Assembly (NCBI RefSeq): GCF_004364285.1
Contig: NZ_SOBE01000005.1
Span: 62,001-126,000, forward strand
Direction: 5' to 3'
Length of the DNA: 64,000 nucleotides
Source: Frigoribacterium sp. PhB116
GTDB taxonomy: Bacteria; Actinomycetota; Actinomycetes; Actinomycetales; Microbacteriaceae
Shown here piece by piece: positions 27,199 to 39,290 of the stretch. Under the pieces are notes generated by a model. That model did no database searches, was not told where the DNA came from, and saw nothing but the letters and a program-made list of their open reading frames with translations. The stretch's first letter is position 1, and each line of letters starts with the position of its first letter. The translations under genes were made by a program, and so were the position numbers.

Positions 27199-28152
27199 GT
27201 GGTCCTGGTCCCCGAGGCGTCCGTCGGCGCCGCCCCCCTCCGACCGGTCGAGACGGTCTACCGGCCGGCCGACCCCGTCGACGTCCGGGCGACCCTGCGG
27301 ACGCTGGCGAGGGGAGCGGGCGACCCTGCCTGGCGCGTCGAGGGCGAGCGCGTGTGGCGTGCCGTCCGCACGCCCTCCGGTCCCGGCACGCTGTGCCTCG
27401 CGGGCGGACGGTCCGAGGTGCGCGCGACGGCGTGGGGCCCGGGTGCCGAGTGGCTGATCGAGGGCGTTCCCGAGCTGCTCGGCCACGGCGACGACTGGGG
27501 CGGCCTCGACGTCTCCGGCAACGCCTTCCTCCGTGAGGCCCGCCGGCGGTCGCCCGGGCTCCGGCTCACCCGTGGCCGGCAGGTGGTGCAGGTGCTCGTG
27601 CCGGCCGTCCTCGAGCAGAAGGTGACGAGCACCGAGGCGTGGCGCGCCTGGCGCCAGCTCGTCCGGGCGCACGGCGACCCTGCCCCGGGGCCGGCTCCCG
27701 AGGGGATGGTCGTGCCGCCCTCAGCCGAGACGTGGCGCCGTGTGCCGAGCTGGGAGTGGCACCGGGCGGGGGTGGGGCCGCAGCGGTCCGCGACCGTCAT
27801 GCGGGTCTGTGCCGTCGCCTCCTCGCTCGAGCGGGTGGTCGACCTGGGCCGAGGTGGGCCCGAGGCCGAGGCCCGCCTGCGCTCGGTGCCGGGCGTGGGC
27901 GTGTGGACGTCGGCCGAGACGACGCAGCGGGCGCTGGGCGACGCCGACTCGCCGAGCGTCGGCGACTACCACCTCCCTGCCCTCGTGGGGTGGGCGCTGA
28001 TCGGCCGGCCCGTCGACGACGACGGCATGCTCGAGCTGCTCGAGCCGTGGCGCGGGCACCGCGAGCGGGTCGTGCGGCTCATCGGGGCCAGCGGCTTCGC
28101 GAAGCCGAGGTTCGGGCCCCGCATGACCATCCAGGACCACCGCCGGCACTGA
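27199..28152 (+). CDS. AlkA/Ogg-like DNA-3-methyladenine glycosylase (HhH-GPD family)
   Basis: A 317-residue base-excision repair glycosylase. The helix-hairpin-helix is LRSVPGVGVWTSAETTQRA, and the catalytic Asp256 lies in DSPSVGDYHLPALVGWAL. An N-terminal beta-rich part (WRVEGERVWRAVRTPSGPGTLCL) and the mid-domain VQVLVPAVLEQKVTSTEAWRAW fit AlkA-type architecture. It would remove alkylated purines; substrate range is not readable. The gene is divergent from GntR paralogue D with an 84-base gap. Confidence 0.9.
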   Translation: MVLVPEASVGAAPLRPVETVYRPADPVDVRATLRTLARGAGDPAWRVEGERVWRAVRTPSGPGTLCLAGGRSEVRATAWGPGAEWLIEGVPELLGHGDDWGGLDVSGNAFLREARRRSPGLRLTRGRQVVQVLVPAVLEQKVTSTEAWRAWRQLVRAHGDPAPGPAPEGMVVPPSAETWRRVPSWEWHRAGVGPQRSATVMRVCAVASSLERVVDLGRGGPEAEARLRSVPGVGVWTSAETTQRALGDADSPSVGDYHLPALVGWALIGRPVDDDGMLELLEPWRGHRERVVRLIGASGFAKPRFGPRMTIQDHRRH

Positions 28153-28187: not shown

Positions 28188-28730
28188 CTAGGAGGCGCGG
28201 GCCACGACGCCGGGGTCGCCCCCCGACGTGTCGTGGTCGGGCGAGGCGGCGTGGTCGGGCGACGTCGCGTGGTCGGGCGACGCGTCGTCGCCGATGGCCT
28301 CGAGCACGCGCCGCGAGAACGACTCGAGGGTCGCGGCGTCGTCGTCCAGCGCCCCGACGAAGTAGCGCCGGATCGCGGCGGTGTGCCCCCGGGTCGCCGC
28401 GAGCATCGCCCGCCGGCCGTCGGCGGTCAGCTCGACCCAGGTGCCCCGGGCGTCGGACGCGCAGTCGGTGCGGCGCACGAGGCCGCGCTTCTCCATGCGC
28501 GTGACCTGGTGGCTGACCCTGCTCTTCTCCCAGCCGATCTGCTCGGCGATGTCGCGCACGCGCAGCCGCCGGTCGTCGCTGCGGCCGAGGCCCACGAGGA
28601 TCTCGTACTCGGGTGCCGAGACGCCGGAGTCGTCGTGGAGCCTCAGCTCGAGGGCACGGTCGAGACGCCGACGCATCGAGTAGAAGGCGTCCCAGACGGC
28701 CCACTCGTCGTCGGAGAGTCGCTCGGCCAT
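28188..28730 (-). CDS. MarR-family regulator with C-terminal SPDHA repeats
   Basis: A 180-residue regulator with a MarR winged helix: MRRRLDRALELRLHDDSGVSAPEYEILVGLG, recognition region VRDIAEQIGWEKSRVSHQVTRMEKRGLVRR, and the wing DARGTWVELTADGRRAM. The tail carries SPDHAT-SPDHAA-SPDHDT, an 18-bp tandem repeat near 28230-28283. ATG 28730 is 7 bases after TACACT. It is divergent from the PutA-like gene, with the two start codons only 41 bases apart, so it probably regulates itself and that gene. Confidence 0.9.
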   Translation of the reverse strand: MAERLSDDEWAVWDAFYSMRRRLDRALELRLHDDSGVSAPEYEILVGLGRSDDRRLRVRDIAEQIGWEKSRVSHQVTRMEKRGLVRRTDCASDARGTWVELTADGRRAMLAATRGHTAAIRRYFVGALDDDAATLESFSRRVLEAIGDDASPDHATSPDHAASPDHDTSGGDPGVVARAS

Positions 28731-28736
28731 TCGCCC

Positions 28737-28742
28737 AGTGTA
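28737..28742 (-). promoter_or_regulatory. -10 box (TACACT) for leaderless marR-like gene
   Basis: TACACT on the minus strand, six bases, then ATG 28730. Confidence 0.6.
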
Positions 28743-28759
28743 GGGACGGGGGTCCGGCC

Positions 28760-28765
28760 TATCCT
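28760..28765 (+). promoter_or_regulatory. -10 box (TATCCT) for leaderless putA-like gene
   Basis: TATCCT, six bases, then ATG 28772. It is back-to-back with the marR promoter, leaving about 17 bases between the two -10 boxes. Confidence 0.6.
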
Positions 28766-28771
28766 CGACCC

Positions 28772-31700
28772 ATGTCCGATGTGCGCGCCGCCGATCTCAC
28801 CTCCCAGGTCGTCGACACGGTGCGACGGTGGCTGGTCGTCGCGTCCTCGGTCCCGGGCGACGCCGCGGCCGAGCGCTTCGCGGCGCTGCTCCGCGACCCC
28901 GACGGGCTCGCCTTCGCCGTGGCCTTCGCGGACCGCGTGGTGCGTCCTGAGGACCCTGCGGTGGCCGCACGGCAGCTCGACCGCCTCAGCCGGGACATGC
29001 CCGCCTCGCTGCCGTGGCAGCTCAAGGCCGCCGTCGCCGCGGGCGGCGGGTTCGGCCCGCTGGCGCCGCGCACCGTCGTGCCCGTCGCGCGGAAGGCCCT
29101 GCGACGCCTCGTGCAGCACCTCGTCGTCGAGGCGGCCCCCGACAAGCTCGGCCCGGCCCTCGCGGCCGCGGCCGACGGCGCCCGCCTCGACCTCGCCCTG
29201 CTCGGCGAGCCCGTGCTCGGCGAGGCTGCGGCCCGCCGCAGGGTCGAGGCGACCCGTGCGCTGCTCGAGCGGGACGACGTGAGCCACGTCTCCGTGCCCG
29301 TCGCCTCCGTGGTCGGGACGGGCGCGGCCTGGGGCGCCGACGAGCGGGCCTCCGCCGCGGTCGAGGCGCTCACCCCGCTCTACGAGCTGGCGCTCGCGTC
29401 CGACCCGCCGAGGACGATCGACCTCGAGGTCGGCGAGCACCGGCACCTCGACCTCGCCATCGACGTCTTCACCCGGCTCCTCGACCAGCCGCAGCTGGCC
29501 GACCTCGAGGCCGGCATCGAGATCCAGGCCGACGTGCCCGACGCCCTGGCGTCCCTGCAGCTGCTGACCGACTGGGCCCGCGGGCGCGTGGCCCGCGGCG
29601 GGGCGCCGATCCGCGTCCGGCTGACCGTCGGCGGCGTCGCGCTCGAGGCCGTCGACGCCGCGCTGCACGACTGGCCGGTCGCGACCCACACGTCGAGGGC
29701 CGAGGCCGACGCCGCGCTCCTCCGGGTGCTCGACCACGCCCTCCGTCCGGTGTCGGCCGAGTTCGCCCACCTGGGGCTCGTCACCGACGACCCGTTCGTC
29801 GTGGCCCACGCCTGGACCCTGGCGAAGCGGCGCGAGGTGACGCAGCACCTCACGATCGAGATGCCCCTCGGCACGTCGCGGGGGCTCCTCCGGGCGGTGC
29901 GGGCCGAGGTCGGCGACCTGGTCGTGCGGGCCCCGATCGTGCAGCACGGCGACCTCGAGGTCGCGGCCGACCACGTCGTGCGCCGCCTCGCCGAGGTCGC
30001 CGCGCCGGGCTCGCCCCTCGCCGCGACGGCCGACCTCGCCCCCGAGGGGACGGTCTTCGACCGTGAGGCCGTCCGCTACCGCGACGCCGTCGCGGCGGCG
30101 GAGGCCGCGGTCGACGGCGACGTGCCGCTGCCCGCCCGTCGTCAGGACCGCTCTCGCCCCCACCTCGCGGGGGCCGACCTCGACCTCGACGGCTCGTCCT
30201 CGTTCCGCAACGAGCCCGACACCGATCCCGGGCTCGAGGGCAACCGCGCGTGGGCACGGCGCGTGCTCGCCGCCTCCCGGCGGTCGGACGCCGGTCTCGA
30301 CGCGATCGAGGCCGCTCAGGTCGACGGCGACGACGGCGCGGCCCTCGTCGACGAGCTCGTGACCGACGCCGCCCAGGCCGGTGCGGCCTGGGGCCGGGAA
30401 GACCCGGCGACGCGCGCCGAGCTGCTCGAGCTCGCGGCCGACGGCGTCGCACGTCAGCGTGCCGCCCTGCTCGAGGTGCTCGTCAGCGAGACCGGCTCCG
30501 TGCTCGACGGCGCCGACCCCGAGGTCAGCGCCGCGGTCGACTCGGCGCGGCACCACGCCGGCCTCGCCCGCGGCGAGGCGGGCCTCCTCGGCGCCCGGCA
30601 CGCGCCTCCCCGCCTCACGGTCGTCGTCCCCTCGTGGCGTGCGCCCCTCGTCTCCGCGGCGGAGCCCGTCCTCGCCGCGCTCGCCGCGGGCAGCGCGGTC
30701 GTGCTCTGCCCGGTGCGGGAGTCGCGCCGCACCGCGGCCGTCCTGGCCGAGGTGCTCTGGGGCGCGGGGGTGCCGCGCTCGCTGCTCGTCCTCGTCGACC
30801 TCGAGCTCGACTCCGAGGCCGGCCGCCGGCTCGTGGGCCACCCTGCCGTCGACCGGGTGCGGCTGACGGGCTCGCTCGACCAGGCGCGGCAGCTGCGGTC
30901 GTGGCGACCGGACCTCGACCTGGTCGCCGAGGTGGCCGTGGCCGCCGTCGCGGTCGTGACCCCGAGCGCGGACGCCGACCTCGCGGCGGCGGACCTCGTG
31001 GCCGGCGCCTTCCGCTTCGCCGGCCAGGCCCCGTCGGCCTCACGCACCGCCCTGCTCGTCGGCTCGGCCGCCCACGCCGAGCGGTTCCGCCGCCAGCTCG
31101 TCGACGCGGCCGCGAGCCTGCGGACCGGCTGGCCCGACGACGCGACGACGCAGGTCGGCCCCCTGATCGACCCGGCCGAGGGCGCCGTGCTCGAGGCGCT
31201 CACGGTCCTGGCGCCCGGCGAGAGCTGGCTCGTCGAGCCCCGGCAGCTCGACGACGACGGCGGCCTGTGGTCGCCCGGCGTCAAGGTCGGCGTGACGCCC
31301 GAGGGGGCGGCCCGCACCGCTGCCGCCGCCGCGCCCGTGCTCTGCCTGGTCGAGGTGGACGACCTCGACGCCGCGATCGAGCTGCAGCAGAGCCTGAGCG
31401 CCGGTGGCTCGGCCGCCCTGCACAGCCTCGACGTCGACGAGGTCGACACGTGGCTGCGACGCGTCCGGGCGGGCACGCTCGTGGTCGGACGACCCACGTC
31501 GCCGATGGTCGTGCGTCGTCGGCCCGCCGCCTCGTGGGGGCGCTCCGTCGTGGGCCCCGCGGTCGCGCCGGGCGGTCCCGACGGCCTGCTCGTGCAGGGC
31601 TCGTGGTGGCGGCTGTCTCGCGAGCCCCACCCGTCGCTGCGCCTCACCGGGGTCCCCGACGTGGTCGTGCCCGTGATCGAGGCGGCCCGGTCGTCCCTCT

Positions 31701-32401
31701 CCTTCGAGCAGTTCGACCGCGTCCGGTCGGGTGCGGTCAGCGACGAGCGCGCCTGGCAGGCGCACGTCGGCGTGGCGCACGACGACTCCGACCTGCGGGT
31801 CGAGCGCAACGTGACGCGCTACCGGCCGCGGCCCGTGCTCCTGCGCCTGTCGTCCGACGCCGACCTGTCCGACCTCGTGCGCCTCCTCGTCGCGGCGGCC
31901 CGGGTACGCGCGCCCGTGACGGTCAGCTCGGCCGTGCCCGTGCCGGCGTCGCTGGTCCAGCTGCTGCACTCGCCGGCGTCGCCGATGCGGGTCGGCGCCG
32001 TCGTGGTCGAGAGCGACCGGGCCTTCCTGGCTCGCGCCTCCGCCGGTCTGCTCCAGGCGCGGGAGGCGACGCACGAGCTGGACGACCTCAGCCTGCTCGC
32101 CCGTGCGACCGGGTCGCGCGACCCGGCCGCCGAGGTCGAGGGCGACGGCGACGGCGACGTCCCCCCGCCCGACGACGCCGCGGTCGCGGCGTACCGCGAC
32201 CTGCACGTGCGGCTCATCGGGGGCGACCCCCGGGCCCTGGCCCGTGCGGTCGGCGGCAGCGTCGACGTCGTGGTGCACGGCGGCGACGTCACCGACGAGG
32301 GCCGGGTCGAGCTGCTGACGTTCGTGCGCGCGCAGAGCGTGACGGTCACGGCTCACCGCTCGGGGCTCGTCGACCCCGACCTGCGCGACCTCAAGATCTG
32401 A
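28772..32401 (+). CDS. PutA-like (proline dehydrogenase / P5C dehydrogenase) protein with eroded active sites
   Basis: A 1209-residue homologue of bifunctional PutA, which normally turns proline into glutamate. The proline dehydrogenase half (about residues 90-430) keeps the framework (LEVGEHRHLDLAIDVFTRLL, VTQHLTIEMPLG). However, RLTVGGVALE stands where RLVKGAN is expected, and VRRLAEVAAP stands for RRxxEN. The aldehyde dehydrogenase half (about 480-1000) has Pro754 in GQAPSASR, where the catalytic Cys of GQKCSA belongs. It also has CP instead of KP in AVVLCPV, and VAEVAVAAVAVV for the GGKN strand. The frame is intact, so it is maintained as a protein. It is probably inactive or has a new role; MarR divergent upstream is the likely regulator. 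Confidence 0.8.
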   Translation: MSDVRAADLTSQVVDTVRRWLVVASSVPGDAAAERFAALLRDPDGLAFAVAFADRVVRPEDPAVAARQLDRLSRDMPASLPWQLKAAVAAGGGFGPLAPRTVVPVARKALRRLVQHLVVEAAPDKLGPALAAAADGARLDLALLGEPVLGEAAARRRVEATRALLERDDVSHVSVPVASVVGTGAAWGADERASAAVEALTPLYELALASDPPRTIDLEVGEHRHLDLAIDVFTRLLDQPQLADLEAGIEIQADVPDALASLQLLTDWARGRVARGGAPIRVRLTVGGVALEAVDAALHDWPVATHTSRAEADAALLRVLDHALRPVSAEFAHLGLVTDDPFVVAHAWTLAKRREVTQHLTIEMPLGTSRGLLRAVRAEVGDLVVRAPIVQHGDLEVAADHVVRRLAEVAAPGSPLAATADLAPEGTVFDREAVRYRDAVAAAEAAVDGDVPLPARRQDRSRPHLAGADLDLDGSSSFRNEPDTDPGLEGNRAWARRVLAASRRSDAGLDAIEAAQVDGDDGAALVDELVTDAAQAGAAWGREDPATRAELLELAADGVARQRAALLEVLVSETGSVLDGADPEVSAAVDSARHHAGLARGEAGLLGARHAPPRLTVVVPSWRAPLVSAAEPVLAALAAGSAVVLCPVRESRRTAAVLAEVLWGAGVPRSLLVLVDLELDSEAGRRLVGHPAVDRVRLTGSLDQARQLRSWRPDLDLVAEVAVAAVAVVTPSADADLAAADLVAGAFRFAGQAPSASRTALLVGSAAHAERFRRQLVDAAASLRTGWPDDATTQVGPLIDPAEGAVLEALTVLAPGESWLVEPRQLDDDGGLWSPGVKVGVTPEGAARTAAAAAPVLCLVEVDDLDAAIELQQSLSAGGSAALHSLDVDEVDTWLRRVRAGTLVVGRPTSPMVVRRRPAASWGRSVVGPAVAPGGPDGLLVQGSWWRLSREPHPSLRLTGVPDVVVPVIEAARSSLSFEQFDRVRSGAVSDERAWQAHVGVAHDDSDLRVERNVTRYRPRPVLLRLSSDADLSDLVRLLVAAARVRAPVTVSSAVPVPASLVQLLHSPASPMRVGAVVVESDRAFLARASAGLLQAREATHELDDLSLLARATGSRDPAAEVEGDGDGDVPPPDDAAVAAYRDLHVRLIGGDPRALARAVGGSVDVVVHGGDVTDEGRVELLTFVRAQSVTVTAHRSGLVDPDLRDLKI

Positions 32402-32673: not shown

Positions 32674-33111
32674 TCAGGCGGTGCGGCGGCTGATCAGCTT
32701 CGACAGCACGATGGCGCTGCGGGTGTGGTCGACGTTCGGGGCGTTTCGCACGCGCTCGAGCGCCTCCTCGAGGGAGGGGATGTCGCGGCTGCGCATGTGC
32801 ACGATCGCGTCGGCGCTGCCCGTGACGGTGCCGGCGTCGACGACCTCGGGCACCGTGCTGAGGATGCGCTGCAGCTCGGCGGGCGAGACCGTGCCCCGGC
32901 AGAACAGCTCGACGAACGCCTCGGTGCCGAGGCCCTCGACGGCCGGGTCGACCTGGACTGTGAACCCCTTGATGACGCCGTCCGCCACCAGGCGGTCGAC
33001 GCGGCGCTTGACGGCCGAGGCGCTGAGGCCCACCGACGACCCGATGTCGCCGTAGCCCGCACGGGCGTTCTGCCTCAGCAGGTCGATGATGCCGTAGTCG
33101 AGATTGTCCAC
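32674..33111 (-). CDS. Lrp/AsnC-family regulator
   Basis: A 145-residue regulator with an N-terminal helix-turn-helix (DYGIIDLLRQNARAGYGDIGSSVGLSASAVKRRVDRLVADGVIKG) and a C-terminal RAM ligand domain (AFVELFCRGTVSPAELQRIL, VVDAGTVTGSADAIVHMRSRD). Start GTG 33111 gives the usual length and lies 8 bases after TACAGT (33119-33124). It is divergent from the arginine/ornithine operon. Lrp-type proteins commonly sense the amino acid whose pathway they flank, so arginine or ornithine is a likely effector. Confidence 0.92.
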   Translation of the reverse strand: MDNLDYGIIDLLRQNARAGYGDIGSSVGLSASAVKRRVDRLVADGVIKGFTVQVDPAVEGLGTEAFVELFCRGTVSPAELQRILSTVPEVVDAGTVTGSADAIVHMRSRDIPSLEEALERVRNAPNVDHTRSAIVLSKLISRRTA

Positions 33112-33134
33112 ATCGGGCACTGTACGCCATTTTG

Positions 33135-33160
33135 TTGCGCAGGAGGTAATGTAGGCGCAA
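33135..33160. promoter_or_regulatory. inverted repeat TTGCGC-N14-GCGCAA, candidate Lrp operator
   Basis: TTGCGC (33135-33140) and GCGCAA (33155-33160) flank TAATGT (33147-33152), a likely -10 for the plus-strand operon. The site sits between the Lrp gene and the hydrolase gene it probably controls. Confidence 0.5.
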
Positions 33161-33185
33161 GATCGTTGCGTGGAGAGCAGCCAAC

Positions 33186-34091
33186 GTGCGCGTTGTCGGT
33201 GTGACACTGAACTCCGTGAGCATCGCCGCCGAGACCGTCCAGCCCTCTCCCGAGGCCCCGCAGCCGCCGACCAGACGCGCGTCGCACCGCAGCGTGCTGA
33301 TGTGCCGGCCCGAGCACTTCACCGTCAGCTACCGGATCAACCCGTGGATGGACCCGCAGGTGCCGACCGACACCTCGCGCGCCGTCGAGCAGTGGCAGAC
33401 ACTCTACGAGACCTACCTCGGGCTCGGCTTCGACGTGCAGCTGATCGACCCGCTGCCCGGCCTGCCCGACATGGTCTACTCGGCCAACGGCGGCTTCGTG
33501 CTCGACGGCAAGGCCTACGGGGCGAGCTTCACCTACCCCGAGCGCCAGCCCGAGGGGCCGGCCTACATGGAGTGGTTCGCCGCCGCCGGCTTCGAGGTGG
33601 TCGTGCCCGAGGAGGTCAACGAGGGCGAGGGCGACTTCCTCCTCGTCGGCGACGTCGTCCTCGCGGGCACCGGGTTCCGCAGCGCGTCCGACTCGCACGC
33701 CGAGGTCGCCCGGGTCTTCGGCCGTGAGGTCGTCGGCCTCACCCTGGTCGACCCGAGCTTTTACCACCTCGACACGGCGATCGCCGTGCTCGACCCCGAG
33801 CCCGTCGACGGCGTCCACAACATCGCCTACCTCGAGAGCGCCTTCGACGAGCCGTCGCTCGCGGTGCTGCGCGAGCTGTTCCCGGACGCCGTGCTCGTGA
33901 GCCAGGAGGACGCCGCGATCCTCGGGCTCAACTCGTACAGCGACGGCTACAACGTCGTGATCGCCGCGGCCGCCACCGGCTTCGAGCGCCAGCTGCGCGA
34001 GCGCGGCTACAACCCGATCGGCGTCGACCTGTCCGAGCTGCTGCTCGGCGGGGGCGGCGTGAAGTGCTGCACCCTGGAGCTGCGACGATGA
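33186..34091 (+). CDS. DDAH/guanidino-modifying-family hydrolase (dimethylargininase, citrulline or arginine hydrolase)
   Basis: A 301-residue enzyme of the guanidine-group-modifying fold. The catalytic Cys294 lies in GGGGVKCCT and the catalytic His194 in SFYHLDTAIAVL. Acidic residues are in NEGEGDFLLVGD and in the N-terminal MVYSANGGF strand. GTG 33186 with GGAGAG upstream is the best start, though in-frame GTGs at 33201 and 33216 are possible. Because ornithine aminotransferase follows with a 4-bp overlap, a product entering ornithine is likely. That favours citrulline or arginine hydrolysis, or dimethylarginine breakdown feeding citrulline. The exact substrate is open. Confidence 0.85.
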   Translation: MRVVGVTLNSVSIAAETVQPSPEAPQPPTRRASHRSVLMCRPEHFTVSYRINPWMDPQVPTDTSRAVEQWQTLYETYLGLGFDVQLIDPLPGLPDMVYSANGGFVLDGKAYGASFTYPERQPEGPAYMEWFAAAGFEVVVPEEVNEGEGDFLLVGDVVLAGTGFRSASDSHAEVARVFGREVVGLTLVDPSFYHLDTAIAVLDPEPVDGVHNIAYLESAFDEPSLAVLRELFPDAVLVSQEDAAILGLNSYSDGYNVVIAAAATGFERQLRERGYNPIGVDLSELLLGGGGVKCCTLELRR

Positions 34092-35335
34092 CGACCGACA
34101 CGACCGACACGACCCGCACCTCCTCGTCCACCGCCGCGGCGATCGCCGTCGAGGACGCGTCGCTGGCGCACAACTACCACCCGCTGCCCGTCGTCGTGTC
34201 GACGGCCGAGGGCGCCTGGGTGACCGACGTCGAGGGGCGCCGGTACCTCGACTGCCTGGCGGCGTACTCCGCCGTCAACTTCGGCCACGGCCACCCGACG
34301 CTCGTCGCTGCGGCGCGGGCGCAGCTCGACCGCGTCACCCTGACGAGCCGGGCGTTCCACAACGACCAGCTCGGCCCCTTCGCCGCCGAGCTCGCCGCCC
34401 TGCTCGGCAAGCAGATGGTGCTCCCGATGAACACGGGCGCCGAGGCCGTCGAGTCGGGCATCAAGGTCGCCCGTGCCTGGGGCTACCGGGTCAAGGGCGT
34501 CCGGCCCGGGGCCGCGAAGATCGTCGTGGCGGCGGGCAACTTCCACGGGCGCACGACGACCATCATCAGCTTCTCCGACGACGAGGAGGCGCGGGCCGAC
34601 TTCGGTCCGTACACCCCCGGCTTCGTGACCGTGCCGTACGGCGACTCCGCCGCGCTCGAGGCCGCGATCGACGACGACACCGTCGCCGTGCTGATCGAGC
34701 CGATCCAGGGCGAGGCCGGCGTCGTCGTGCCGCCCGCGTCGTACCTGCCCGAGGTGCGTCGGATCACCCGCGAGCGGAACGTGCTGTTCATCGCCGACGA
34801 GATCCAGTCGGGCCTCGGGCGCACCGGCGCGACGGTCAGCTGTGACCTCGTCGACGTCGTGCCCGACCTGTACCTGCTGGGCAAGGCACTCGGCGGCGGC
34901 ATCGTCCCCGTCAGCGCCGTGGTCGGCGACCGTGACGTCCTCGGGGTGCTGCGGCCCGGCGAGCACGGCTCGACCTTCGGCGGCAACCCGCTCGCCGCAG
35001 CGGTGGGCCTCGCCGTGGTGCGGATGCTCGCGACCGGCGAGTGGCAGGAGCGCGCGACGCGACTCGGCACCCGCCTCCGCGACGGCCTCGAGGCCCTCGT
35101 CGGCTCGGGCGTCGTCACCGTGCGCGGAGCCGGCCTGTGGATGGGGATCGACATCGACCCGGCCGTCGGCACCGGCCGCGAGGTCTGCGAGGAGCTGATG
35201 CGCCGCGGGGTGCTCGCCAAGGACACGCACGGCTCGACCATCCGCCTCGCGCCGCCCATCGTGATCACCGAGGAGGAGGTCGACGAGCTCGTGTCGACCC
35301 TCGGCTCGGTGCTGCGCGACCTGCCCCGAGGCTGA
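34088..35335 (+). CDS. rocD: ornithine aminotransferase
   Basis: A 415-residue class III PLP aminotransferase that moves the delta-amino group of ornithine to 2-oxoglutarate, giving glutamate semialdehyde/P5C. Seen are YHPLPVVVSTAEGAWVTDVEGRRYLDCLAAYSAVNFGH, PMNTGAEAVESGIKVAR, NFHGRTTTIISFS and FIADEIQSGLGRTG. The PLP lysine Lys266 is in LLGKALGGG. The start motif MTTDTTDTTRTSSST is a Thr-rich lead. ATG 34088 overlaps the hydrolase stop. The P5C it produces would normally be oxidised by a PutA-type enzyme, but the local PutA homologue looks inactive. Confidence 0.94.
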   Translation: MTTDTTDTTRTSSSTAAAIAVEDASLAHNYHPLPVVVSTAEGAWVTDVEGRRYLDCLAAYSAVNFGHGHPTLVAAARAQLDRVTLTSRAFHNDQLGPFAAELAALLGKQMVLPMNTGAEAVESGIKVARAWGYRVKGVRPGAAKIVVAAGNFHGRTTTIISFSDDEEARADFGPYTPGFVTVPYGDSAALEAAIDDDTVAVLIEPIQGEAGVVVPPASYLPEVRRITRERNVLFIADEIQSGLGRTGATVSCDLVDVVPDLYLLGKALGGGIVPVSAVVGDRDVLGVLRPGEHGSTFGGNPLAAAVGLAVVRMLATGEWQERATRLGTRLRDGLEALVGSGVVTVRGAGLWMGIDIDPAVGTGREVCEELMRRGVLAKDTHGSTIRLAPPIVITEEEVDELVSTLGSVLRDLPRG

Positions 35336-37734: not shown

Positions 37735-37771
37735 GAGTGGTCCACGAGGAACCACAGGCAACCGAGGAGCA

Positions 37772-37800
37772 AGCATACAGATCGGAGACCCTCCGCGCAA
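37772..37800 (-). promoter_or_regulatory. promoter of the tRNA operon
   Basis: On the minus strand TTGCGC (37795-37800), a 17-base spacer and TATGCT (37772-37777) form a good housekeeping promoter, with a start near 37765 and about 30 bases of leader before tRNA-Glu. Confidence 0.7.
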
Positions 37801-37997
37801 AACGGTCTCGACGGGCCCCGTGGCGGCCGCACCTCGCCACGACTCGCCGCCGGGCGCGACCTGCTGGCGGGTCGGCACGGGGCCGTCTACCTTCGACCTG
37901 TACTCCACAGTTCGTCGGTCGCGAGATCGGCGGACGATCGGACGGCTCGGGCCTCCCGGGCGAGCTCGACCTCGTGCACGACGAAATCGGAACCTCG

Positions 37998-39290
37998 ATG
38001 ACCTCCAGCCGCACCCTCCGCCGCCGCGCCTCCTCGGCCCTCGCCGTCCACCGCGGCCCGCACGGCGCGCGCATCGCCGCCGCCCTCGCGGCCGTCGCCC
38101 TGCTGGTCGGCGCGGGCGTCGCGTCGCCGCAGGCCGCCCACGCGGCGGACTACCCGTCCTGGGCCGACGTACAGGCCGCCCGCGGCGACACGGCCGCGAA
38201 GCAGGGGGAGATCGACACGCTCCAGGGCCTGCTGACCCAGCTCGACGCCGATCTCGACGCGAAGAACGAGGACGCCCGGCAGAAGGGCGACGCGCTCCAG
38301 GCGGCGCAGACCGCCTACGACGACGCGCAGTTCCGCACCGCCCAGCTGCAGGCCCAGGCCGACGACGCCGCGGAGGTCGCCGCCGCCAGCGAGGAGCGGG
38401 CCGGCCAGCTCGCCGCCCAGCTCGGACGGTCCGGCGGCAACGACGGCATCAGCAGCAGCCTCATCGCCGACCCGGGCGACGCGGGCCAGCTGCTCTACAA
38501 GCTCGGCGCGATGAGCAAGCTCACCGAGCAGGCCGACGGCATCTACTCGCAGGCCACGCAGGACAGGAACACCGCGCAGTCGCTCAGCGACCAGGCGGCC
38601 GTCGCGGCCGCCGCCCTCGAGGAGCTCGCCGACGAGGCCCGGGTCGCCCTGGCTGCCGCGAACGAGGCGGCACAGGCCGCCGCCGACGCGCTCGCCGAGC
38701 AGGAGGACAACAAGGCCCGGCTGGAGGCGCAGCTCGCGATCCTGCAGCAGGACCTGCAGACCACCGAGGCCGAGTTCCAGGCCGGCGAGGAGGCGCGCAA
38801 GGCGGCCGAGGCCGCTGCGGCAGCCGAGGCGGCCAAGTACGGCAGCCCGACCAACGGCACCCCGGCCGGCGTCATCTCGAGCGCGGGCTGGACCCGCCCC
38901 TCCGGCGGCAACGTCGTCAGCGGCTTCGGCATGCGCGTCAACCCGGTCACCCACGCGTACGTGCTGCACGCCGGCACCGACCTGGCCGCCGCCTGCGGCA
39001 CGCCGATCTTCGCCGCCACCGCGGGCACGGTCAGCTACGCGGGCTGGATGGGCGGCTACGGCAACTTCGTCCAGGTCGACCACGGCGGCGGCGTCAGCAC
39101 CGGCTACGGCCACCAGGTCAACGGCGGGATCATGGTGTCCGTCGGCCAGCGCGTCGAGGTCGGCCAGCGGATCGGCACCGTCGGCTCGACCGGCAACTCG
39201 ACCGGCTGCCACCTGCACTTCGAGACGCGGCAGGGCGGCGTCGCGGCCGACCCGGTCCCGTTCATGTCGGCGCGGGGCATCCGCCTCTAG
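37998..39290 (+). CDS. secreted M23 peptidase with coiled-coil domain (NlpD/EnvC-like)
   Basis: A 430-residue exported protein. The signal peptide is RIAAALAAVALLVGAGVASPQAAHA, with cleavage likely after AHA. An Ala/Gln-rich coiled coil (about residues 55-275) precedes a LytM domain with zinc ligands in HAGTDLA and HLHFE. M23 enzymes cut peptidoglycan cross-bridges or activate amidases; the coiled coil is typical of divisome-linked members. ATG 37998 has only a weak ribosome site, and the 263-base upstream gap (37735-37997) otherwise holds the tRNA promoter on the other strand. Confidence 0.92.
   Translation: MTSSRTLRRRASSALAVHRGPHGARIAAALAAVALLVGAGVASPQAAHAADYPSWADVQAARGDTAAKQGEIDTLQGLLTQLDADLDAKNEDARQKGDALQAAQTAYDDAQFRTAQLQAQADDAAEVAAASEERAGQLAAQLGRSGGNDGISSSLIADPGDAGQLLYKLGAMSKLTEQADGIYSQATQDRNTAQSLSDQAAVAAAALEELADEARVALAAANEAAQAAADALAEQEDNKARLEAQLAILQQDLQTTEAEFQAGEEARKAAEAAAAAEAAKYGSPTNGTPAGVISSAGWTRPSGGNVVSGFGMRVNPVTHAYVLHAGTDLAAACGTPIFAATAGTVSYAGWMGGYGNFVQVDHGGGVSTGYGHQVNGGIMVSVGQRVEVGQRIGTVGSTGNSTGCHLHFETRQGGVAADPVPFMSARGIRL

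Follow-up and report, generated by a model that had tools for sequence, protein, structure and literature searches.

Why would a bacterium keep a full-length PutA whose active sites appear to be gone? The question is raised by a gene, here called PutA-B, in a 64,000-nucleotide stretch of DNA from Frigoribacterium sp. PhB116 (contig NZ_SOBE01000005.1; the whole stretch is called the window below). PutA is a bifunctional channelling enzyme with a proline dehydrogenase (PRODH) half and a pyrroline-5-carboxylate (P5C) dehydrogenase (P5CDH) half. The PutA-B frame begins with an ATG at position 28772 and runs through 1209 codons with no stop inside. Pfam recognized Aldedh (E 2.7e-54) and Pro_dh (E 1.5e-19) in the product, and a PDB search returned CfPutA of Corynebacterium freiburgense (5ux5; E 8.2e-164), with PutA likeness over the whole length. 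An AlphaFold2 model of residues 11-1209, based on 30 aligned sequences, had a predicted local distance difference test score (pLDDT) of 86.9 and a predicted template modeling score (pTM) of 0.87. Its best structural match was again 5ux5, with a template modeling (TM) score of 0.73 normalized to the query and 0.91 normalized to the target. The model keeps the whole PutA fold, so that PutA-B is predicted to have the domain order, fold and C-terminal domain of a type-B PutA. An earlier reading of the DNA letters alone (the sequence-only reading) had described an intact 1209-residue frame that is PutA-like throughout, and these results bear it out. Against the NCBIfam PutA equivalog NF008869, with its cut-off of 747 bits, PutA-B scored 132.7. 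However, two intact control copies also fell below the cut-off (L002, 367.7; L127, 363.7). We therefore dropped it as a sign of failed PutA membership, and only the large drop in score is informative. Here L denotes a fetched locus or its PutA sequence, G a genome (G000 being that of the window), and g a group of genomes. PutA-B is 93% identical to L036 (Frigoribacterium sp. ACAM 257) and 86% identical to L037 (F. faeni). These two appear to duplicate the genomes of L009 and L010, sharing their identity values and residues, and were not double-counted.

We checked 14 active-site positions across 190 aligned PutA sequences. All 14 are kept in 163 of them, and 27 deviate somewhere. With so many sequences complete, the losses in PutA-B are not alignment noise or chance. 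In the P5CDH half, the alignment gave C754P, N623R, K646C, replacement of GKN at 723-725 by VAA, and E851A and F853A in the ExF motif. By motif, positions 623 (the oxyanion Asn) and 754 correspond to Asn707 and Cys844 of the Sinorhizobium meliloti enzyme SmPutA. Of the catalytic Cys, Asn and Glu, only the general-base Glu720 is left. The PRODH half carries K286V and Y386R. Both are proline-contact positions, equivalent by motif to SmPutA Lys265 and Tyr473, which touch proline and are conserved from bacteria to eukaryotes, according to the available text of PMC12398946. The other two members of the contact set, R404 and R405, are kept, as are D313, R354 and E408. The sequence-only reading had the nucleophile Cys turned into Pro754, KP into CP, and an altered proline dehydrogenase half, all as the alignment places them. 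It was right that the GGKN motif is lost, although the family motif is SGKN and PutA-B reads AVAA rather than VAVA. Its statement that RRxxEN is not kept was mistaken. The stretch reads R404, R405, L, A, E408, V409, so three of the four fixed residues stand, and the final N varies among intact-site copies too, many of which read EEG. The reading had also asked whether a Cys, Lys or Glu might be correctly placed elsewhere. No Cys or Lys lies one or two places off at the aligned motifs, a check along the sequence rather than a three-dimensional search of the whole protein. A frame error or misalignment was rejected as the source of the losses, given the open frame, the alignments and the lack of shifted residues nearby. 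Judging from these residues, the P5CDH of PutA-B is almost certainly dead, and its PRODH is very probably dead or crippled. PutA-B thus combines a homologous, predicted fold with loss of the catalytic motifs.

The genome also holds a second PutA, as the sequence-only reading had proposed to check. This copy, PutA-A (G000:C2:415669-418878), is 46% identical to PutA-B, is alike over most of its length, and has all 14 residues intact. Both kinds occur in 16 of 16 Frigoribacterium genomes. The dead-type copy is an open frame in 15, the exception being G006, whose interrupted copy was left out of every alignment and dead-gene count. PutA-A has TetR, ABC-transporter and epimerase genes as neighbors, and no match to the window's MarR was found near it within the fetched 18 kb. 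In L007 (11178-16284, minus strand), the intact putA of this genome has an epimerase/3-beta-HSD family gene (Pfam) after it on the opposite strand. The open reading frames (ORFs) beyond it look by eye like ligase, hydrolase and ketoacyl-synthase genes, which we take to resemble an olefin (Ole) cluster.

We then estimated the ratio of nonsynonymous to synonymous change (omega, or dN/dS) with GY+F3X4 codon models in three Frigoribacterium groups, I to III (4, 6 and 3 genomes). Omega of the dead copy was 0.040, 0.060 and 0.081, and that of PutA-A in the same genomes was 0.027, 0.022 and 0.048. Fixing omega at 1 for the dead copy worsened the fit by 871, 993 and 557 log-likelihood (lnL) units. By domain, the dead copy gave 0.022 (arm), 0.026 (PRODH), 0.054 (aldehyde dehydrogenase [ALDH]) and 0.039 (C-terminal domain) in group I, and 0.050, 0.050, 0.063 and 0.060 in group II. 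The corresponding PutA-A values in group I were 0.003 for the arm, 0.018 for ALDH and 0.085 for the C-terminal domain. "Arm" is the name we presume to apply to residues 11-130. Three-sequence sets that joined dead copies of other genera with intact relatives gave 0.080 (g32), 0.028 (g80), 0.060 (g76) and 0.079 (g49), and the matching A-copy sets gave 0.036, 0.037, 0.043 and 0.062. NG86 dN/dS in the 11 closest of 17 pairs was 0.11-0.18 for the dead copy and 0.06-0.11 for PutA-A. The dN/dS check proposed by the sequence-only reading thus came out far below 1, and PutA-B is no decaying pseudogene. We are highly confident that purifying selection maintains it as a protein. For Frigoribacterium we reject a pseudogene, on dN/dS, lnL and the kept promoter region described below; single dead copies elsewhere may be pseudogenes.

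Constraint is distributed differently in dead and working copies. Among 51 intact copies, 324 columns are at least 98% identical, and we asked which of these are kept in all nine dead Frigoribacterium sequences compared. The arm keeps 12 of its 24, PRODH 31 of 115, the linker 1 of 10, ALDH 45 of 151 and the C-terminal domain 19 of 24. The two catalytic domains together thus keep 76 of 266. We also compared divergence of the core (PRODH plus ALDH) with that of a periphery chosen by us (residues 11-130, 946-1060 and 1140-1204), a measure that omits residues 1-10, 441-500, 1061-1139 and 1205-1209. Of 17 pairs that include a dead copy, 16 had a core/periphery ratio above 1 (range over all 17, 0.97-2.25). 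This held for 8 of 8 pairs within Frigoribacterium (1.12-1.89), the single pair in g80 (1.41), 3 of 3 pairs against a congener (1.13-2.25), and 4 of 5 pairs of Frigoribacterium against its sister genus (0.97-1.17). All 18 intact pairs fell below 1 (0.36-0.98). Decay by itself should bring the ratio near 1, and the dead copies go beyond that. In the dead copies, constraint has shifted from the catalytic core towards the arm and C-terminal domain, opposite to the pattern in working PutAs. In Frigoribacterium PutA-A, conservation is lowest in the C-terminal domain and linker and roughly equal in the arm and ALDH, which makes the reversal plainest for the C-terminal domain and PRODH.

Trees of 82 and 46 rows separated Microbacteriaceae PutAs into two clades, A and B, with PutA-B in clade B and some deep branches weak. 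Clade-B copies of several genera, but not all, lie near marR, an Lrp/AsnC gene, a DDAH-like gene and a class-III aminotransferase gene. From this placement and gene order, PutA-B is taken as the native Microbacteriaceae PutA turned pseudoenzyme. In the sister genus (G101, G019), both copies have an intact P5CDH triad and PRODH set. The sister-genus PutA that follows the same marR keeps 13 (L126) or 14 (L127) of the 14 positions. Its preceding 41 bp are 35/41 and 37/41 identical to those of the window. The arrangement therefore predates the loss.

Loss of the active site has recurred. In 23 of the 27 deviating sequences, one or more residues of the P5CDH triad (Asn, Glu and Cys) are missing; without the repeats L036 and L037, this makes 21 distinct genes. 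The remaining four of the 27 are L129, with Tyr386 and Phe853 altered, L126 and L145, with Arg354 as their sole deviation, and L104, which is truncated. Fifteen of the 21 are from Frigoribacterium, and one each is from G119 (L128), G063 (L153), G152 (L155), G094 (L160), G156 (L166) and G089 (L169). Of these last six, the copies of G094, G156 and G089 have diverged most, and the L160/L166 and L169 branches are long and unsure in place. At least five changes to the dead state are needed on the family tree (46 rows, L129 coded alive). A trait private to Frigoribacterium was rejected, as dead copies also occur in g32, g49, g75, g76 and g80. One shared or selected Cys-to-Pro change is not needed either. 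The Cys became Pro, His or Arg by lineage, and short GC-driven codon paths could yield all three. All 21 genomes have a second PutA undeviating at the 14 positions. Outside Frigoribacterium, this copy belongs to clade A by tree in G119, G063, G152 and G094, and in G156 and G089 it merely scores better with A than with B. The 11 single-match genomes sampled all have an intact copy (G021, G056, G124, G160, G036, G038, G115, G080, G082, G103 and G098). We searched 150 family genomes, of which 131 had a match (3 of them Frigoribacterium), and fetched loci from 55 non-Frigoribacterium genomes. This sample favored two-copy genomes and top matches, so 6 dead in 55 is no frequency.

The 41-bp gap between marR and putA-B holds two -10-like hexamers, TACACT for marR and TATCCT for putA. 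Both fit TANNNT, are 17 bp apart, and stand 6 nucleotides from their ATG; they were chosen by eye and conservation. A sigma-70 consensus scan found no promoter in the gap, and we infer a leaderless layout for both genes. In this layout, the -35 site of either gene would coincide with the -10 of its neighbor. Across 15 ungapped relatives (13 Frigoribacterium and 2 of the sister genus), 35-41 of the 41 bases are kept, and four-fold site identity is 0.44-0.57 in the 12 deep comparisons and 0.63-0.74 in the three that are close. G001, whose spacer is longer, was left out of this scoring. The divergent MarR gene put forward by the sequence-only reading is real (Pfam MarR_2). The pairing predates the loss and is no special sign of the dead protein.

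We favor, with some reserve, the explanation that PutA-B is a non-catalytic subunit or scaffold. The residues lost indicate that this native PutA, present beside PutA-A, has given up its P5CDH chemistry and almost certainly its proline oxidation. Conservation of the gap suggests that it is probably still made from the ancestral promoter, and the codon models indicate that purifying selection holds it as a protein. The divergence ratios point to a selected job that would be non-catalytic and lean on the N-terminal arm and the C-terminal domain. A non-catalytic binding role is moderately probable. In a type-B PutA, the C-terminal domain is tied to P5CDH activity, channelling and proline-dependent lipid binding, according to the passages available from PMC5293562. 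Assembly with PutA-A, or with the membrane or partner surface that PutA-A uses, is therefore our first guess and the most likely arrangement, although PutA-A itself as the partner is a tentative suggestion by analogy. PutA-B would then tune the stability, localization or channelling of PutA-A, much as prozyme does for S-adenosylmethionine (AdoMet) decarboxylase. It is possible, though doubtful, that this is a recurrent product: beside a second PutA, the native one would have become, at least five times in Microbacteriaceae, a non-catalytic subunit of a proline-oxidizing complex, with selection moving to the arm and C-terminal domain.

Several observations weigh against the subunit or scaffold. 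The active-site decay varies by lineage, as under relaxed selection. Omega of the dead copy exceeds that of PutA-A, and NG86 values in six deeper pairs (high dS) were 0.22-0.60 against 0.09-0.35. The bootstrap interval of the core/periphery ratio lay wholly above 1 in only 8 of 17 dead-copy pairs and in none of the 5 against the sister genus; among the 18 intact pairs it was wholly below 1 in 13 and reached above 1 in 5. The pairs are not independent, as many have a sequence in common. With overlapping promoters, marR alone could account for conservation of the 41 bp. In the monomeric RcPutA, the C-terminal domain couples domains within one chain (PMC5293562, in the text available), so a conserved C-terminal domain need not mean a partner. 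Support for the proposed role comes from sequence and predicted structure. The G006 copy (L117 3066-6681) carries two single-base deletions. Part of this would fit a relic, in which PutA-A took over and PutA-B slowly decays under relaxed selection with no function of its own now. A relic would also agree with partial losses in lone species of other genera beside congeners with intact sites (L153 beside L145, L155 beside L140). Redundancy alone could explain why loss appears solely in two-copy genomes. However, omega is 0.04-0.08 in the three Frigoribacterium groups and 0.022-0.063 in each of the four domains of groups I and II, 15 of 16 frames are open, and the 41-bp region is kept. The periphery is more constrained than the core, where neutral decay would be expected to give a ratio of about 1. 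In G006, the deletions could be recent or come from an assembly error in this single-contig genome, the DNA being otherwise 98.9% identical to G005. We consider a relic improbable.

A ligand sensor that binds proline or P5C without turnover, and signals via the C-terminal domain or MarR, could draw on the retained D313, R404, R405 and E408 and on the MarR neighbor. A type-B PutA also binds lipid better with proline, in the available part of PMC5293562. However, no Frigoribacterium sequence keeps the full ligand set. Group I lacks Lys and Tyr; group II lacks one Arg, Tyr and Glu; group III lacks one Arg, with the Glu aligned to a gap (Glu408 is placed in a gap in L013, L019 and L020, and its state there is uncertain); G010 lacks Lys and Asp; and G001 lacks Lys, Tyr and one Arg. 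Each lineage has thus lost its own combination of ligand residues, which speaks against a proline or P5C sensor. The MarR layout is also older than the loss, and we regard a sensor as unlikely. The sequence-only reading had proposed retention as a sensor, scaffold or regulator. The residue loss and the retention under selection are supported, and the proline or P5C sensor is the part that is not. A new enzyme might still bind FAD or NAD and run a different reaction with new residues. For this, 28 positions are common to eight or all of the 9 Frigoribacterium sequences and seldom seen in intact clade-B copies, against 0 in a control of 9 other genera, a contrast overstated by the control set being no clade. 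Three of the 28 (862, 904 and 942) lie in the ALDH half, and the set as a whole lies mostly in the first 24 residues, at scattered sites and in the C-terminal region with its insert. No active-site cluster of the 28 is evident in the sequence, where three-dimensional clustering was not tested, and the NAD motifs are lost, so that a new enzyme is very unlikely. A half-active enzyme, with slow PRODH and PutA-A completing the reaction, would suit the same four retained residues and the low PRODH omega in group I. It is just as hard to credit, since the proline contacts Lys286 and Tyr386 are gone and, in 5 of 5 deep Frigoribacterium pairs, PRODH has diverged more than any of the other three regions, by a narrow margin in some.

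Features of the putA-B locus in the window, with the basis of each assignment
Feature	Position	Strand	Basis and remarks
MarR-family regulator, divergent neighbor	28188..28730	-	Pfam MarR_2; synteny
41-bp divergent promoter region of marR and putA-B	28731..28771	.	AGTGTA (reverse complement TACACT) 28737-28742; TATCCT 28760-28765
Catalytically dead type-B PutA homologue (PutA-B)	28772..32401	+	1209 aa, intact frame; Pfam, PDB search, alignment, AlphaFold2
N-terminal arm region	28802..29161	+	Residues 11-130, limits approximate
PRODH-like domain	29162..30091	+	Residues 131-440, limits approximate; K286V 29627-29629, Y386R 29927-29929; R404, R405, E408 kept
ALDH/P5CDH-like domain	30272..31606	+	Residues 501-945, limits approximate; N623R 30638-30640, K646C 30707-30709, GKN lost at 723-725, C754P 31031-31033
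Type-B PutA C-terminal domain	31607..32398	+	Residues 946-1209; 19/24 near-invariant residues kept in all 9 Frigoribacterium sequences compared
Lrp/AsnC-family regulator	32674..33207	-	Pfam; true start probably near 33117; syntenic marker of native putA-B locus
DDAH-like amidinohydrolase	33186..34091	+	ORF as listed, true start probably downstream; syntenic marker
Class-III aminotransferase	34064..35335	+	Pfam; syntenic marker

The aminotransferase is presumably an ornithine aminotransferase (RocD). It follows the DDAH-like gene in close relatives and G001 (L118, L036, L037 and L116), and the stretches fetched from another seven Frigoribacterium genomes (L117, L120-L125) gave no match to it. 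The gene upstream of marR (27208-28152) has a similar place in many fetched loci. It had no Pfam match at E 0.001, and the label AlkA was not used for it. Further along the window, 37737-39290 encodes a 517-residue protein with an M23-family peptidase domain at residues 411-506. A MarR-type identity for PutR, the putA regulator of Corynebacterium, was not confirmed in the literature searched. PutR is called PucR-type in the available text of PMC7652997 and Lrp-type in that of PMC5293562.

If the pseudoenzyme reading is correct, PutA-B is a natural dissection of PutA, with the chemistry removed and the remainder held by selection. The roles of the arm and C-terminal domain of type-B PutA apart from catalysis would become testable. 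It would also show pseudoenzymes arising repeatedly, in bacteria, from a channelling enzyme beside an active paralogue. A recurrent subunit, if real, would amount to a prozyme-like system in bacteria that serves a bifunctional channelling enzyme. There is a warning as well, as some Microbacteriaceae genes named putA may not oxidize proline.

Among the matches listed from open-access literature, in titles and the starts of abstracts, there was no report of a catalytically dead PutA. Pseudoenzymes and dead activating paralogues are already known, and PutA-B is best described as a pseudoenzyme of PutA, not a PutA enzyme. It has the same domain order and, by prediction, the same fold as the type-B PutAs of C. 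freiburgense (5ux5) and S. meliloti (5kf6). Unlike those enzymes, it lacks the catalytic Cys and Asn, the NAD motif and proline-contact residues, and its constraint has moved from the catalytic core towards the arm and C-terminal domain. It differs from its homologue PutA-A, which has 14 of 14 residues and other neighbors. Human ALDH16A1 has no PRODH half. It is an ALDH pseudoenzyme without the catalytic triad, for which non-catalytic roles have been proposed (PMC10650815, in the text available). Like PutA-B, it is an ALDH-superfamily member without catalytic residues; unlike PutA-B, it is an animal protein. The trypanosomatid prozyme and the dead deoxyhypusine synthase paralogue activate the active subunit, according to the available portions of PMC5201418, PMC6221367 and PMC3663545. 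These dead paralogues, like PutA-B, are kept beside an active one. However, they belong to different enzymes and their complexes are proven, whereas assembly of PutA-B with PutA-A is a proposal.

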